Source: Sanguinoderma infundibulare
Lineage: Eukaryota > Basidiomycota > Agaricomycetes > Polyporales > Polyporaceae
Length of the DNA stretch: 64,000 bases
NCBI GenBank assembly: GCA_032821775.1
Contig: JAVLRN010000006.1
Coordinates: forward strand, 1,674,001-1,738,000
Direction of reading: 5' to 3'
Shown: positions 45,530 through 59,326 of the stretch, one piece after another
Layout: each line of letters opens with the position of its first letter
How positions within the stretch are numbered: position 1 is the stretch's first letter
Notes under the pieces: model-generated
What the model was told of the DNA's origin: nothing
What the model saw: the letters and a program-made list of their open reading frames with translations, nothing else
Database searches by the model: none
Translations under genes and position numbers: made by a program

Positions 45530-46836
45530 ATGACCCGGTCCTCGCCGGTGGCAACAGACGCAAAACCCTGCATTTACTATTGCCAAGGTCATTGCACCCG
45601 CGGAGCCCACTGCAAATTCGCACACGTAACTAGTTCTTGGAGATCGCAACCTCCCGCCCACTCTGTGCGGGACAACAAGAAGCCATCAGCTGTTACGATA
45701 TGCGAATTCTACAGACAAGGGTCTTGTCGATACGGGGATAACTGCCTCTTTTTCCATCCTGGCTCGCGATCAGAACCTCACCCCGGCGCAATAGAAATTC
45801 CTTCGGATACTGTTGGTTCTAGAGTCGTTCCCGAGCCCTCACCCCGTCGTCCAATCCCCACCTCGGCCTCGTTCGGCTCATGCAAATTCTACGCTCAAGG
45901 TGCTTGCAACAAGGGGGATGCGTGTCCCTTTCTGCATCCTGCTGCCTCCTTCAACAAGCCAGGCGCGTTCTCTCCTGTCGCAAACGTCTCGTCAAAACGA
46001 TTAGATGGTGCGTCCGCCTCCTTGACACATACATAGACCCCGCTTATCGACATTCCACAACACATACATAGACTCGTGGGCGTCGCGAAGAGCGTTCCCC
46101 GAACAGGTCGACAGTGTTGCCGCACGTCGTCACTCTCTGGACAACAACGGCCTTCTGGTTCCATGCAAATTCTTCCTCCAGGGAACGTGTTCTAAGGGCG
46201 CTGGATGTTCATTTTGGCATGCCGGGGCGGGGCGTGAAAACGACGTGACTACTCTGGAGTCGTTGAAAGATCCTAAGCTAGTGGGTGGCCATTTTTGCAC
46301 ATTAGACAAGGATTCTGATCAAACTATACGAAGCAACCCACCGTGATATCCAAGCAGATGGTGCTAGACGTGCCAGTGCAAAGCAGGAAAGAGATTTCCG
46401 ATCCAGACAATAGAAACATTGTAAGTTCAACGGTCAACGAGAGCATGATGAAGCCAGGCTAACTAATTATTCCCTAAAGGTCGATGAACAAGAAGAAGAG
46501 CCGGTCGCTGTTTTTGTCGACGAACCTTCGAGCACCGATCGCACCAAGCTTGGCTGCAAGGTCACATTTGGGCCAGGGGGTTGCATACAAGAGATCGTGA
46601 CCGCGTTCGAATCGCACGTCGTCCTTCTCCACAACATCCCTACTTCCGTGACACATACGCAGTCGATGGACTTGGCAGAACCCTTCGGCGCGCTGAAGAG
46701 CGTAATCATCATTCCTCACTACGACGGTGTCTCGCAGCCATCCGGAAGGGTCGAGTACCTCAACACACACCATGCCGCACGAGCTGCAGCCGAGATTAGC
46801 CGGACGAGGGAGCTCCAGGGCACACTCGCGGTAGAG

Positions 46837-46838
46837 TA
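46837..46838. repeat. Target-site duplication TA, left copy
   Basis: TA directly before the left TIR. The matching copy is at 48676-48677. Because the TIR itself begins TA, a 4-bp TATA duplication is formally possible, but only TA restores the host reading frame. Confidence 0.8.
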
Positions 46839-46930
46839 TACAACGACACTTGCAAGTTCGACGCCTATTAGGCGTCTCCCACCTGCAAGTGCGGCACATA
46901 GGCGCTGGAAAACACAGCCACATCCCCGCC
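46839..46930 (+). repeat. Left terminal inverted repeat
   Basis: Begins TACAACGACACTTGCAAGTT. It contains the perfect inner palindrome GACGCCTATTAGGCGTC and two copies of the A-C-[TC]-TGCAAGT 10-mer 33 bp apart (46848, 46881). About 8 mismatches to the right TIR over 90 bp. Confidence 0.93.
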
Positions 46931-47073
46931 TCGTCTGACCCCCCTAGAGGCCTCTACTGTCCTCATTGGAGTCCCCGCCATTACTCCCACCTCCTGCTCA
47001 TTGGTAGGCCTCACTGCGGGCCTTGACGAACACAAAAAAGTAGGTAAGCGCTTTACAAAAAAAGAACACTATC

Positions 47074-47148
47074 TGGCAGGCTTGAACCCAGAGCACACCA
47101 TTCCCAACGGTAATCATTGAGCACGCTTATCCACTAGACCATCAGGGC
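47074..47148 (-). other. tRNA-like Pol III unit (left, outward facing)
   Basis: On the minus strand: GCCCTGATGGTCTAGTGGAT, a D-arm/A-box like that of tRNA-Glu or tRNA-Asp, then GGTTCAAGCC as B-box (47079-47088). A run of seven T on that strand follows (+ strand A run near 47057-47063), suitable as a Pol III terminator. Acceptor and T stems do not pair well, so this is a tRNA-derived relic rather than a tRNA gene. Confidence 0.6.
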
Positions 47149-47420
47149 TTGACATAAAGTTAACAGTTTGGCTATATATACCTTCCTCTGGCCCGCAAAC
47201 TTGCAAGTACATTCCTCCGAGAGGACTTGCAAGTTCATTGACCCTCTAAAGTTACTTCTAGCACTTGATTTGGGGGGCCCATGAATGTATACAATAGGTA
47301 CATATATGTTGTATGACCAAACACTTGAAAAGACTGACGGAAAATACAAAGAGACGATGGAGATATAGAAGCAATGGTGTAGAGAGGGGGGGGAGGAGAA
47401 GGTATACGTATCTTGGGAAC

Positions 47421-47511
47421 TTCTTGTTGTATCGCGACGTTCTATAGCGCGTTATAAAGCGACAGACTGTCGCGTTCCAACGCGCTATAGAACGTCACCA
47501 TACAATAAGAA
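47421..47511. repeat. Long hairpin in the middle of the transposon
   Basis: Arms 47421-47453 and 47479-47511 pair over 33 positions with two mismatches and one G-T. The inner 18 bp are perfect (GACGTTCTATAGCGCGTT). Inside the loop a second stem GCGACAG/CTGTCGC closes at 47459-47473. Confidence 0.92.
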
Positions 47512-48482
47512 CTCGTGGAGATATGGAATAACAGCCATTGGAGATAGGGTAGGAGGAAGGGGGAGCTGTACCGTGGATTCTAGCAGTCATGACAATGAGG
47601 TTTCTGCCATGTTGGATAGGGAATATATAGATAAGACGATGTACGAAGTGTCAAAGTGATTCAAGACAAACTGATTCCAGGGGAAAGCGGGGAAGGGGAG
47701 AGATACAGGGCAGAGTGTTGACACAATCGAAAAGGAACGCGTGGATGAATACTCACGGTATTGGAATCGTTCAAAAGCTGTCCAACACCTCTTTCCAACA
47801 AGCTATTACCCATCAACACTGGCCTCCATATGCGAGAGATACGACATGATCTTTCTTCCAGGCTGGGGGGAGGAGGAAGGGGAGGACATACCAAGGCTTC
47901 TAGTGGTCGAAATAGTGTCATCTTGGACTCGTTCGATAGGGAATGAAGAGGAGAACAAGAATCCACGATATTAAAACGATCCATGAAGAAACCATACTGA
48001 AAGAGCGAAGATAGGGAGGGATAGTATAGGGTAGCACAAACAAGGAATAGAATAAGAACGGCCTAACGAAAACATACGCTTCAGGGCTTGTTTGAGAGCC
48101 CTTGAATCTCCCTTTCGAACGCATCCTTTTCCAGCCCAATCGTCCAAACCGCCACAGAGATATCAGCCCATCTTCCTCCCGGCCTATCCTTATCTTGATA
48201 ATTTTGCCAATTTGCGGTAGCTTGAGCTCCTGAACCACAGAGGTCGACATGTAAAGAAAGAGACCTAGTAAGCCCAAAAGAATGAAGCAGACAGCGGCTG
48301 GCGGTGTAGATGGCAGGTGGCGGGGTGAGCGAGAACGATGGCGGGGCGCTGCGAGAGCGCCTAGGCGGATAGGCGGATGGGAGGCGCGCGTTGGAAGGGG
48401 ACTTGCAAGTTCGGCAACTTGCAAGTAGTAAGTACGCGGGGCGGATAAAGGGATATGAGCCTAAAACAAGCTAGCAAATCAA

Positions 48483-48551
48483 AGCCCACTTGGCTTAGTT
48501 GTCAGAGCGCCTGGCTCATTTCTTGGGTTGGGGGTTCGAACCCGGGTTCGC
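48483..48551 (+). other. tRNA-like Pol III unit (right, outward facing)
   Basis: TGGCTTAGTTGTCAGAGC as D-arm/A-box and GGTTCGAACCC at 48533-48543 as a perfect B-box, with a CTCATTT loop where an anticodon CAT would sit. TTTT follows at about 48557. Acceptor stem does not pair; tRNA-derived, probably not a working tRNA. Confidence 0.6.
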
Positions 48552-48583
48552 CTTTGTTTTAGGTTGATTTTCTGGGCGCCAGT

Positions 48584-48675
48584 GGTGAGAATGTGGCTGT
48601 GTTTTACAGCGCCTATGCCCGGCACTTGCAAGTGGGAGACGCCTAATAGGCGTCGAACCTGCAAGTGTCGTTGTA
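48584..48675 (-). repeat. Right terminal inverted repeat
   Basis: Reverse complement of the left TIR, ending AAGTGTCGTTGTA at 48675. The two 10-mers (48624, 48657) are again 33 bp apart. Confidence 0.93.
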
Positions 48676-50550
48676 TACGGCTCACTCGCGAGGCTTGATC
48701 TTCGAGCGGCTGAGAGCGGGAAAGCCATCCTACGCAGTACGAAGGCAAAGCTCAGCTGGTTCGCGCCTAGCCTTGCTGCATGGGCCCACTATTCATCTAT
48801 CGCCAAGGCAAGAGAGAAGGCTGCGCGGTTGGACGGAAAGTCTTTCTGTGGCACGACTATCCGAGCAACGTTTCAGACCCCATCCCGGAGACAACTGACA
48901 TCCTTCTCGGTGGAACTCAAAGGCCTACCGCTCGGCACGTCCGCCGCACGTCTGAAGACGTTCTGCCAAGCTGACTCCGTCGCTCTCGGTTCCCCTAGTT
49001 TCATGATCGAAGACTCGATCCGGGAGCTGCGCAAGATGCTTTCCGCGCACGGGTCTCTGGAAGCCTTCGACTTTGTGCAACCCGACCGACCGAAGCCCAA
49101 GCTCGTAGCGTTCGTGCAGTTCACCGACCCGGACGCAGCAGAGCGGGCGGTCGCCTCGCTTCACAATCACCGCCAAACCTTCCTCCGCGGCAGCCCCATC
49201 TTTCTGGAACTCATACACTCTATCAAGTACATGCTTCCCTCCGCTCAGTTCCAGGCCCTCCGGCCGCAGGTGGACGCGCTCAAGGAGATTCTCCAGACGT
49301 GCAAGCTGCGCTATCACGACAAGGACGAGTACGAGCGTGACACGGAGCGGGTCTGCGTCCGCGCGTACGGGCCTGACGCGAAGGGGCTCGGTCGCCTGAA
49401 GACAGAGATAGAGCTCCTGCTGAAGGGCGAGCCCGTCCTCAACGAGGACGGCCAGGTCGCATGGCACGAACACTATTCCTCGGCGAGCGGCAGCCAGCTC
49501 TTGAGCAGCGTCGCAGTCCAGACGAAAACGTACATCAAGTGCGACGCACGGACGCGGACCCTCTGCGTGTTCGGTGCCCGGGAAGGACGCGGGGCGGCCA
49601 AGACCCGCATTCTGGCGGTGCTTGCGAAGCTGAGGAGGCAGGAACACGTATTGGACCTCGAGCCGGCGGTGTTCCGCAAGATGCTCCATGGGGGCTTTCA
49701 AGCGCTGCAGGCGGAATTCGGAGACAAAGTCCTGTTTGACGTGGTCCACAGGCAACTTGTCCTGCGCGGGGACGAGGACGAGGCTCGCGCCATCCGCGAC
49801 AGCGTCTCCCAACAGCAAAAGGCTGGGGGACAAGCTGTCCGGCACTCTTCGCGCCCTGCGGAGCTGGATGACTCGCCTTGCCCAGTGTGTTTCTGCGACA
49901 CCACGGAGCCTGTGACGTTGCCTTGCGGGCACTGCTACTGCCGCGCTTGCCTCCATCATTACCTTGCCTCCATCGGACAGTCCCAGGGCGGGTCGCAGAA
50001 CGTCGCATCTTGTCTCGCCGAAACCCCACAACCGGATGGCTCCAGCCAACCTTGTGGTCGTGGTGTTCCTCTCGACACCATCCGCTCGATCCTGTCCCCG
50101 GGAGAAGAAGAGCGTCTGCTCGAGGCCACGTTCCTCTCTCACGTCCACAGCCATCCCCAGGAGTACCACTACTGCCCCACAGCCGACTGCCAGACGATCT
50201 ACCGCGCATCCACGGACGACTCGAACATCGTCCTCCGCTGCCCCTCCTGCCTCGCGCGCATCTGCGCCTCGTGTCACGTGGAGTTCCACGAGGGGCTGGC
50301 CTGTGCAGATTTCAAGGACGATGCGTCCGGAGGGACCGAGGCGTTCCGGCGCTGGCGAGAAGAGAACGGCATCAAGGCCTGTCCCGGTTGCGGTGCGGAT
50401 CTGGAGAAGAGCGGGGGCTGCAACCACATGACTTGCGCGCGGTGCGGAACGCACATGTGCTGGGTTTGCATGGAGACCTTCAAGGACATCGATAGCGGGG
50501 GAGGTGTCTACGCACACATGCGGCGGGAACATGGAGGCATCGGGATATAG

Positions 50551-53860: not shown

Positions 53861-56800
53861 ATGGCCCTCCCCGAGAAGAAGGCTAAGGCCCCCATCCCCA
53901 GCTTCACCCTCCCCAAACATGACCCCGCCGCCGTGAACGGCGACGCCGCGCCCAAGACCCCCGCCGACGAGGGCATCTTGTTCTTCGAGTCTGGCACCAC
54001 CCAAGAAATACGCGTCTACGAGTTGCGCTTGGATCCCGACGGTGGTCCAAACAAGGACAGATCTGTTGAGTATTCTTCCTTGCATCCGCTTCCCAAGCCC
54101 GCGCCATCCTCCATCGAATCGCATTCACGTCCACTTACTGTTTGCATGTCGCATCTGCACTCGGGCTGACCACTTCTGCAGTACATGCGATTGCCTCCGG
54201 CCTACACGCCGTACGTTCTTCGAGTATCCTTAGATGCAGGAACGCCTGCCTCCCGCAATGGCGTATTCAAGACCAACTTCCCCCTTGACGGTGGCCGCTT
54301 TGCCCGCGACCGTTTTGCCGAACGAAAGTGCGTTCTTTCCAGTTGTTTCACACTGTTCTGCAGCTAACCCGCCTCAGACTCCCCACCAATTTCTCTGCTC
54401 CCATCCAGATAGATCTCCCCATCTCACACGCCGGCGCGTTCGTCTACTGGGTAGAATACGACGGCGACGCTCCCGGCTCTCGTGTCAAGGGCCGTGAAGG
54501 CTACTTCAACATAGACCCCATCCTTCGCACAAAGGCCCGAACCCCCATCATCTCCGGCCGTACCATCGCCCCCAACGGCTCCGTCGTCAAGCCCGACGAT
54601 GTCAACCTCCCCTTGGACGGCATTGCCCTCCTCACCCTCGTCTCCAAATGGATGGGTCCCACTTCCGGTTGGCGCGAGTTTTTCTCCGAGGCCAGCGCGA
54701 GGGGATACAACATGATCCACTGGACGCCCCTCCAGGAGCGCGGCGACAGTGACAGTCCGTACTCCATCCGCAACCAGCTCGCCTACGAGCCGTCCATGTT
54801 CTCCGATCCTGGCGATCTCGGTGACGACGGGGGCAAGGCCAAGTTGGAGGAGATGCTTAAGGTCGCCAGGGAAGAGTATGGCTTGCTCAGCCTAACCGAC
54901 GTCGTCCTCAACCACACTGCCAACGACAGTCCGTGGCTGCACGACCATCCAGAGGCAGGTGTGTTCCCAGGTTCTCTCCAAGTCCTGTTATGCTTTACCA
55001 AAACGTCCACGTAGGTTATAGTCCCTCAAATACCCCGCACCTCACGCCCGCCCTGGAGCTCGACACCGCTCTCCTCGACTTCTCGGCCTCATTGGAGTCG
55101 AGAGGTCTTCCGACGACTATCACATCCGAGCAGGACATCAACCGCATCATAGACGCCTTCGCCACCCACCTCAAGGAACACGACATGTGGCAGTACTATG
55201 TCCTAGACGTCAAGCAGGAGCGCAGTGCCGTTAAAGATGCGCTCGGTAAGCCCGACATCGTCGCTTGGACTGGGAGCGACGTTGCCAACAAGACCACTGT
55301 CGAGCTCGCAAACATCATCCGAGACTCTGGTTGTATCGAGGGCCACCGGAAGTTGGAGAAGAGATTCGGTACTCATGTTCCTGGCCCTGTATCTGCTGGC
55401 TTCATCAAGGCTGCCTTCCCCAGTCTCACCGACAATGACGCGCTTGCCGACGCCTGGATACGTGTCGTCGACGTTCTCAACGTGCCCCTCTACGAGGAAT
55501 GGAAGGAAGACACGACGATATCGTTGGATCAAGTTCGTAACCGTGTCAAGTACACGCGCCTCGAAGAAAATGGCCCCAAGCTCGGACCAGTCACGCGAGC
55601 GTAAGTTCATCCCAGTTAAGCTGTATGATGTATACCAACGCTTCATCTCCCCTCAGTAACCCTCTCGTCGAGCCCTACTTCACTCGCATCAAGGACACAG
55701 AGCCCGAGATCTACTCCGTAGCTAACAATGGATGGATCTGGAACGCCGACCCCCTTAGCAACTTCGCTCTCTGGCCCTCAAAGGCGTACCTCCGGCGCGA
55801 AGTCATCGTGTGGGGAGACTGCGTGAAGCTCCGCTACGGAGACGGACCGTCGTCTAACCCCTGGCTCTGGGAGTTCATCACGAAGTATGTCACGGACCTG
55901 GCCGCAACGTTCCAAGGCTTCCGTATCGACAACTGCCACTCGACCCCGCTACATGTCGGCGTCACCTTGCTGGATGCCGCTCGCGTGGTTAACCCCGACC
56001 TCTACGTCTGCGCGGAGCTGTTCACGGGTAGTGAGGAGATGGACACCATCTTCGTCAGTCGCTTGGGCATCAACTCCTTGATTCGGGAGGCTGGCAACGC
56101 TTGGGATCCTAAGGAGTTCTCCCGTCTAATCTACCGCCATGGTCTTGGGAAGCCGATCGGTAAGCTATCCCTCCGCATTCATCCAGAATTGTGCTTATGT
56201 TTACGTTGATCAGGATCCATGGACGGCGCATGCATGACGAGCAAGGGCGAGCTTCCGCCGCCCACCGGCAAGGGCCCGACGCGCGACTGTGTGGTCATCC
56301 CGCATAACGGATCGGTCCCCCACGCTCTTTTCTACGACCTGACGCACGACAACGAGTCGTACCTCCACAAACGGTCTGCCGAGGATGCACTCTCCACGGG
56401 TGCTTTGATGACTTTCTCGTTCTCCGCCATTGGCTCAGTAAAGGGCCTCGACGACCTCTACCCGAAGCTTCTCAACCTCGTCCAGGAGAAGAGGAGGTAC
56501 CAGGTTACGCACCTCGGGAAGAACAGCGGGATTGCGAAGGCGAAACGTATTCTGAACGCGCTCCACACCGAGTTCGCTTTGGGTGGGTATGAAGAAGGTC
56601 ATGTTCACCAGGAGAACGAAGTGAGTCCGTCTTTCCTTGATATGGGACACTCCCTAACAACGCTTTGCAGTACATTGTCCTTCACCGTGTGCAGCCGCAC
56701 ACGCAAAAGGGGTACCTCCTTGTTGCCCACTGCGCCTTCCAGAAAGGCTCGAAATATCGGGGATTCAGTGAGTGTCATCAGCAGCCATCTCCTGCGAACT

Positions 56801-59326
56801 TACCCTGACGTCCGATCTACGAAGTCACACCTATCAAGCTCCGCAGCACCAAGGCTCGGTTCTTGTACGGCGCACGCATTGACTTCTCGTCTTACGAAGA
56901 CGCCTCGGATAGTGCTACCCTCCGAGGAATGTCCGGCAAGCTCGTGAGCGTGCCCGAGTTCGTCGTGCCGCAAAACCATGATTCCGAAGGCCCGTATGCG
57001 GAGATCGTCGTCCCGGAGTACTTCCCGCCTGGGAGCATCATGCTCTTCGAGACGCAACTGGAGGGCCTGGACAGCGATCTTGACAAATTCTGCTCGTCGG
57101 GCGCGGAGCAGGCGTTTGGCGACCTCGACCTCGTCGACCTCAACGCCGTCCTCTTCCGCGCGGAAGGAGAGGAACGCGATGCGACCGGGGGCGAGATTGG
57201 GGCGTACAACGTCCCTGGTCTTGGTAACTTGGTGTACTGTGGCCTCGAGGGATGGATGCACCCGCTCCGTCACATCATGCGCTACAACGACCTCGGGCAC
57301 CCGCTGTGCGGCCACCTTCGAGAAGGAGCGTGGGCGTTCGACTACGTGCACAACCGTCTGTCCAGGTATGTTATATATAGGTTCTTTCATGCATGAATAC
57401 ACTGACAGTCTTTTACAGACAGACAGATGTTTTGCCGAACCTCGCGAAGCCGGCGAAATGGTTCAAGGAACGCTCTGACCGCGTCAAGGACTCTGTTCCT
57501 CCCTTCCTGCGACCCAAGTACTTCGCGATCATCATCTCCGAGGCATACAAGGCCGCGCGCCGCGCGGCGATCGAACAGTGCTCGAACTTCGTCTCGACTG
57601 GACATGATTTCACGCAGAACCTCGCTCTGTGCTCCCTGCAGATGTATGGCCAGGTCAAGTCTGCATCGCTAGACCCGGGAAAGCCTACCCCATGTTTGGC
57701 AGCTGGCTTGCCGCACTTCGCCGCAGGCTGGGCGCGTACCTGGGGCCGGGACGTGTTCATTTCGCTCCGCGGTCTCTTCCTCACGACGGGCAACTTCAAT
57801 GGCGCGAAAGCGCACATCCTCGCGTTCGCGTCCGTGCTCAAGCACGGCCTCATCCCGAACCTCCTTGACTCGCTGCGGACCCCGCGGTACAACTCTCGCG
57901 ACTCGCCCTGGTGGATGCTGCAGAACATCCAGGACTACGCCGCTCTCGCGCCCGACGGGCTCTCGATCCTCTCCGAGTCCGTCAAGCGTCGCTTCCCGAA
58001 GAACGACACCTGGGTGACGTGGGACGACCCGCGCGCGTACGCGTACTCGAGCACGATCGCGGAGATCGTGCAGGAGATCCTCCAGCGGCACGCGACCGGG
58101 ATATCGTTCCGGGAGTACAACGCAGGCCCGAACCTGGACGGGCAGATGCGGGACGAGGGGTTCAACATCAACATCAAGGTCGACTGGACGACGGGGCTGC
58201 TCCTGGGCGGGAACCGGTTCAACTGCGGGACGTGGATGGACAAGATGGGCGAGTCGGAGCGGGCGGGGAACAAGGGTCTGCCCGGGACGCCGCGCGATGG
58301 GGCGCCGGTGGAGATCACGGGCCTGCTGAAGAGCACGCTGAGGTGGCTGAGCGAGCTGTCGGCGGCGGGGAAGTTCCCGTTCAAGGGCGTCGAGGCCAAG
58401 AGTGAGTGTGTGGTTGATCGGTTTCGGAGCGACGATTGCTGATGGGTATCACACAGTCAATGGGCAGAAGCGTTTGGTAACGTACAAGGAGTGGAGCGAT
58501 CTCATCCAGGCCTCGTTCGAGAAGTGCTACTACGTCCCCACCAGTGCGCATACTGGCTTTTACGATCTATGTTGTCATCTCTCTAATGCCCCTTTTAGAT
58601 GCTAGTGAAGACGTGAAGTACAATATCAATTCGCAGATGGTCAACCGCAGGGGCATCTACAAGGACGTGTATGGTACTCCTACCGAGCGCGAGTGGGCGG
58701 ACTACCAGTTCCGTCCGAACTTCCCTATCGCGATGACCGTCGCGCCCGAGTTGTTCGACCCTCAACACGCCCTGGGCGCGCTCAAGCTTGCCGACCAGGT
58801 TCTGCGCGGGCCTCTGGGCATGAAGACGCTCGACCATGTGGACCTCCAGTACCGTCCTGACTACGACAACGCGAACGACGGCACGGACATGTCTGTGGCG
58901 AAGGGTTGGAACTACCACCAGGTGCGCGGCGCCGTTCGATGATTCGATGAATGACTGGGTACTGACGTATATAATGATTTGATTCTAGGGTCCCGAGTGG
59001 GGTTGGCCGCTGGGCTACTTCCTGCGCGCGTATCTCTACTTTGACACCAGGGTTGGGGCCGGTAAAGAGGTACGTTCCGGCTGTCGGCAGCGGCAAATCG
59101 CATATCATTGACTCGACCTGTCCCGCAGGATCCGACCGTGACCCTACACCACCTGCACGGCATCATCCTGAAGCCGCGGGAGCACATCCAGAAGGACCCG
59201 TGGGCGGGCTTGCCGGAGCTGACGAACAAGGGCGGCGCATACTGCCACGACTCGTGCAACACGCAGGCGTGGAGCTCGAGCTGCATGCTAGATTTCCTCG
59301 AGGAGGTGCACAAGGTGAGCGCATAG
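53861..59326 (+). CDS. GDB1: Glycogen debranching enzyme
   Basis: Bifunctional 4-alpha-glucanotransferase / amylo-alpha-1,6-glucosidase of glycogen breakdown. Thirteen exons: 53861-54064, 54182-54327, 54378-54958, 55015-55600, 55657-56159, 56214-56620, 56671-56767, 56825-57365, 57419-58401, 58457-58543, 58599-58921, 58989-59069 and 59129-59326. The GH13-type half shows the nucleophile Asp in FQGFRIDNCHSTP and the general acid in YVCAELFTGSEEMD, plus SLTDVVLNHTANDSPWL. The C-terminal glucosidase half shows GWARTWGRDVFISLRGL, INIKVDWTTGLLLGGN and KGWNYHQ then GPEWGWPLGYFLRAYLY. About 1,550 residues, usual for the family. The TAG at 59324-59326 is read straight through the last donor; splicing there would append a Thr/Ser/Pro-rich tail. 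Confidence 0.95.

Follow-up and report, generated by a model that had tools for sequence, protein, structure and literature searches.

The window, a 64,000-nucleotide stretch (C6:1674001–1738000) of the 48.9-Mb Sanguinoderma infundibulare assembly that we searched (87 contigs), contains a CCCH-RRM-RBR ligase gene whose coding sequence is broken by a transposon (Table 1). The RRM1 match to the left of the element stops at profile position 62 of 70, the RRM2, RING and IBR domains all lie to its right, and the reading frame stays open on either side and can be joined. For the RBR half, the closest proteins came from Ganoderma leucocontextum (81%), G. adspersum (79%) and G. sinense (77%), which suggests a Ganoderma-like polypore. 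The broken gene is single-copy: its RBR half was found once in the assembly, which contains the filled site only, so that no empty allele is at hand. Inverted arms, recurring ends and domain matches bear out the proposal of a sequence-only reading, made by a model from the letters and their open reading frames, that a TIR transposon sits in a coding exon of this gene; an insertion of this kind is, by itself, ordinary.

Table 1 Features of the broken gene and its transposon (window positions), and related loci elsewhere in the assembly (contig positions).
Feature	Position	Strand	Basis or remark
Exon with three CCCH fingers	45530..46006	+	Domain match; limits set by eye
Part of next exon, fourth CCCH finger	46128..46289	+	Domain match; limits set by eye
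Exon with most of RRM1, broken at 46830	46480..46830	+	Open frame, homologue alignment, domain match
Left target site duplication, 7 bp, ACTCGCG	46824..46830	+	Comparison of 16 two-ended copies
Non-autonomous KDZ-type transposon (very probable class), 1853 bp, ends GTAGAG...CGGCTC	46831..48683	+	Recurring ends, copies, duplications
Left inverted-repeat arm, 95 nt, 91% complementary to right arm	46836..46930	+	Inverted-repeat search
Left-arm outward tRNA-like A box + B box pair (putative)	47079..47141	-	A box begins 47141
Right-arm outward tRNA-like A box + B box pair (putative)	48491..48542	+	Box-pattern scan
Right inverted-repeat arm, 95 nt	48584..48678	-	Inverted-repeat search
Right target site duplication, 7 bp, ACTCGCG	48684..48690	+	Comparison of 16 two-ended copies
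Remainder of broken exon: RRM1 end, RRM2, RING, IBR; stop codon 50548-50550	48684..50550	+	Open frame, alignment, domain match
Giant family member 1	C11:555913-595639 (L031-L035)		Own 7-bp duplication
Giant family member 2	C2:40810-80537 (L036-L040)		Own 7-bp duplication
Other host loci matching giant pieces	C6:2319497-2321120, C5:1073238, C12:2083275, C3:3311212, C3:4167237, C6:2260388		

The borders of the element were taken from comparison with its other copies. At other loci too, TATACAACG is preceded by GTAGAG and CGTTGTATA is followed by CGGCTC, with the duplications outside them, and the element therefore ends at 46831 and 48683. Genome-wide searches with the end patterns (up to three mismatches) gave 22 and 29 matches, versus 0 for reversed control patterns. 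The inverted repeats of about 90 bp described in the sequence-only reading were recovered in the arms, but its borders were not: it had assumed a TA flank duplication, and since the true duplication is the 7-bp ACTCGCG, and TATA is part of the element rather than of the target, the element reaches six bases further on each side. Inside the element, window 47421–47511 forms a near-perfect palindrome with 45-nt arms, 87% complementary and 1 nt apart.

Removal of the element together with one duplication (1853 + 7 = 1860 = 3 × 620) yielded a joined protein (...ELQGTLARLDLRAAESGK...) that fits its homologues. We aligned 31 homologues, 30 of which cover the insertion site (P0006 has no sequence there), and none of these 30 has a counterpart of the element; its presence in relatives as a genuine intron is what the earlier reading had named as a refutation. 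Counted from the alignment, the joined protein is equal in length at the site to 20 of the 30, nine have a few additional residues in the loop directly preceding the join, and P0030 is shorter at this point. The earlier claim that the frame rejoins after excision is right insofar as both sides are open and the cut is a multiple of three, as is the TA-based cut; the proposed TA join itself fails, adding seven residues that are absent from all 30 homologues covering the site.

If the element stays in the transcript, the protein ends before the last part of RRM1, RRM2 and the RBR module. Reading through into the element adds 35 codons before TGA at 46936–46938, and the predicted product would consist of the CCCH fingers, most of RRM1 and 35 foreign residues. 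It had been proposed that such a protein keeps four CCCH fingers and the first RRM while losing the RBR module; the fingers are indeed kept and the module lost, but RRM1 is incomplete and RRM2 is lost too. Because the truncated protein lacks RRM2 and RBR, the unspliced allele probably has no ligase activity. No stop codon interrupts the RRM and RBR parts, which fits an insertion too young to have decayed; the sequence-only reading had offered a recent or a heterozygous insertion, either of which may apply.

It is very improbable that the window element is instead removed from the transcript like an intron, in the manner of an introner, leaving the gene working. Frame-keeping, stop-free splice pairs do exist: the region scanned holds 27 GT/AG pairs, the best of which joins the donor GTATAC at 46836 to an acceptor ending at 48692 with a net gain of 3 nt (Val-Glu replaces one Arg), and this donor, sitting in the conserved left end, is present in other copies as well. 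However, while GT is present at the left end, the right end is CGGCTC, without AG, and the frame-keeping pairs are weak or take their acceptor from the flank, as the best one does. At other sites in long open frames, computed by hand, the frame would be kept at C8_2.5 (2552 + 7) but lost at C3_2.5 (2556 + 7) and C8_1.8 (1855 + 7); moreover, 1.86 kb is very long for a fungal intron. Splicing of an intron-like unit, one of the options raised from the sequence alone, is possible on paper and unsupported. Introners resemble the present case in placing a transposon-like unit inside a coding exon, but in the window element the left-end GT is not matched by a right-end AG (PMC9860276; here and below, comparisons refer to the available portions of the cited accounts).

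We examined 16 two-ended copies of the family in the assembly, leaving out one-ended fragments. A perfect 7-bp duplication flanks 13 of them at dispersed, unrelated sites, with sequences that differ among copies (e.g., ACTCGCG, CCTTCTC, AGCTGAA, TGTTGCC, GGACATT); copy C2 has 4 bp, and C18 and C10 have none. The ends read GTAGAG..CGGCTC in 15/16 copies and GTAGAG..CTCTAC in C18. The search for further copies, which the sequence-only reading had suggested, returned two full-length copies (C7 and C11a) at 99% identity to the window element; C7 and C11a show 1 difference in 1853 bases, and the 1854 columns aligned between the window copy and C7 contain 24 mismatches and 2 gap positions. The remaining members have about 400 bp in common at each end and different interiors, many matching by their ends alone. 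One 6.4-kb copy, C3_64 (C3:3710084–3716468, L013), carries an arm of the right type at each end and is flanked by a perfect 7-bp duplication.

Two of the copies are giants of 39,727 and 39,728 bp, 99.585% identical over 39,729 columns, at different sites and with flanks that are not alignable. They encode a CxC2 + KDZ transposase (PF18758 KDZ, E 9e-25; PF18803 CxC2, E 6.2e-33), the best relatives of which, from G. leucocontextum and Dichomitus squalens, match at 74% identity across 60% of the query. Close to its right end the giant has a T5orf172 frame, and no Tet_JBP match was found in the giants. The window element and the giant have both ends in common (80–81% over 419 and 375 columns). At least 87 KDZ matches were counted genome-wide, four of them within the 16 copies and all four in the two giants; the 14 other two-ended copies, the window element included, gave no KDZ match. 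Since its ends are common with those of the sole KDZ-bearing copies among the 16, we consider with high confidence that the window element belongs, as a non-autonomous member, to a family of KDZ (Kyakuja-Dileera-Zisupton) DNA transposons, and that it is inserted in the RRM1-end exon of the ligase gene. We file it at the KDZ superfamily level; the KDZ link runs through the common ends only, because no copy besides the giants encodes KDZ, and the abundance of KDZ genes in the genome counts against it, as do the three copies without a 7-bp duplication and the TIR-bearing ends, which are unlike those of Laccaria Kyakuja (see below). The short copies are probably dependent on a giant or a similar element, since the KDZ matches of the 16 copies are all in giants. 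A further locus, C12:422699–429419, is 80–83% identical to parts of the giant, and by this similarity is perhaps a decayed relative of it, maybe a second giant.

There is little likelihood that the family belongs to another transposase, with the KDZ gene carried by the two giants as a mere passenger. Several open frames of the giants have no Pfam match, the scan covered part of their frames, and KDZ genes are frequent, as noted; yet the 24 giant frames scanned with Pfam contained no other transposase domain, the 7-bp duplication length fits KDZ, and the KDZ region of the giant is matched only weakly elsewhere in the genome (65% over about 620 bp plus shorter stretches) and so is unlike a nested repeat in appearance. 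A Tc1/mariner-like element with a TA duplication can practically be dismissed: TA does flank the element if its start is placed at TACAACG, but TATA and six further bases per side recur at unrelated sites with the 7-bp duplication outside them, and the absence of a TA duplication at the true borders refutes this class.

For a non-autonomous KDZ element, we propose that the transposase of the giant would act in trans on the common ends and that the short element would have moved by cut and paste, a staggered cut by the transposase giving rise to the 7-bp duplication; the element would thereby have landed in the exon encoding the end of RRM1 of the single-copy gene, with the truncated product described above.

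The giant carries pieces 88–94% identical to host loci. One such locus lies in the window itself, where 56457–58892 is a glycogen-debranching enzyme gene (GDE_C and hDGE_amylase Pfam matches); 2 kb of it are found again in the giant, in which 2875–4887 matches window 58892–56457 at 93, 88 and 89%. We infer that the transfer ran from host to element. Gene capture by Pack-MULE type elements likewise places host-gene pieces inside a TIR element, as in the giants; those elements are mostly 1–2 kb, compared with 39.7 kb for the KDZ element here. Capture of the Pack-MULE type is named in PMC6431247.

The giant also encodes a 699-residue protein (L033:6481–8577, minus strand) with no Pfam match and 146 homologues. 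Taking equally long contigs as the same contig, and with 120 of the 146 partner homologues listed and 58 of 59 KDZ homologues usable, we found that 26/58 KDZ homologues apparently lie on the contig of a 699-residue-protein homologue, versus 2/31 RBR-search matches; on contigs below 260 kb, the same comparison gave 13/36 versus 0/16. In G. sinense, GSI_09726 and GSI_09727 are neighbours by tag. This Pfam-less protein thus often accompanies KDZ transposases in polypores. The predicted model of its homologue P0091 is confident, and structure comparison returned no convincing solved relative of that model.

We then considered the arms, each of which contains a putative outward, Pol III type-2 promoter-like pair: an A box and a B box in type-2 spacing, followed by a T-run (on the left an A-run of the plus strand, 47057–47063; on the right a short one). 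Neither ARAGORN nor Rfam called a tRNA in the element arms. Scanning every copy but the 275-bp C10 (15 of 16) with consensus forms of the boxes revealed a perfect pair in the left arm of 14/15 copies, including C3_64 with its right-type arms, and in the right arm of 8/15; half of the right arms deviate from the A-box pattern. Within one mismatch, the pair was present in 15/15 copies on each side, a count that does not represent 15 independent events because the copies are related. In C8_18 the right-arm pair lies 216 bp from the end instead of about 193 bp. Background sequence (279,198 bases) contained no perfect pair, with 0.037 per arm expected at up to one mismatch, and inward pairs were seen only at two mismatches, close to the 0.41 per arm expected by chance. 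One giant holds exactly one perfect pair per strand.

Better evidence than the 15/15 count is the contrast in conservation between the boxes and their surroundings. Over 12 left arms, with C3_64, C11a and one giant excluded, identity was 95% in the A box and 91% in the B box, versus 67% between the boxes, 76% upstream and 49% just downstream, with 81% in the T-run zone. The deviating half of the right arms and the negative ARAGORN and Rfam results count against a Pol III role. A joint reading, which we advance tentatively and regard as possible rather than probable, is that of a giant 39.7-kb gene-capturing KDZ transposon, each arm of which would keep under selection a different outward Pol III (TFIIIC-type) cassette. 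The cassettes might serve as chromatin boundaries or transcription starts that hold the ends open for the transposase, aiding the spread of short relatives, and the conserved, family-less protein of about 700 residues might join in transposition. If the boxes work, they offer a model, open to testing, for the way in which a DNA transposon protects its ends or marks them.

The interest lies in the family: a KDZ member of about 40 kb, in two near-identical copies, with host-gene-like pieces and putative Pol III boxes at both ends. The published fungal KDZ elements compared for size are smaller: KDZ1–KDZ3 of Cryptococcus neoformans measure about 9–11 kb, with TIRs of 139–241 bp and 4–8 bp duplications, a range that includes the 7 bp found here (PMC12810828). 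They too combine a KDZ transposase bearing a cysteine cluster with TIRs and insertions in genes, although their cluster is CxC1 and that of the giants CxC2 (PMC12810828). Target duplications are 7 bp in Kyakuja and 8 bp in Zisupton, the latter having the KDZ superfamily and TIRs in common with the window family but not its 7-bp length (PMC12730594). The window family resembles Kyakuja of Agaricomycetes in its 7-bp duplication, KDZ transposase and basidiomycete host. The two Laccaria Kyakuja families, however, are described in the available part of that account as having CA..TG ends, no TIRs and a TET/JBP gene (Kojima 2025, PMC12730594), unlike the GTAGAG/CGGCTC ends, 95-bp TIRs and putative Pol III boxes of the window family and its 39.7-kb giants without a Tet_JBP match. 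Starships are likewise giant fungal mobile DNA with cargo, but are reported from Pezizomycotina and classified by a tyrosine recombinase, whereas the giants here have a KDZ transposase and TIRs (PMC12134995).

A sister right end (TTGCAAGTGTCTGTGTAGACGGCTC) was observed in seven copies (C1:4436433, C6:349076, C8:1477265, C8:2255641, C10:976276, C18:184930 and C20:45556), which probably represent another family with related ends.
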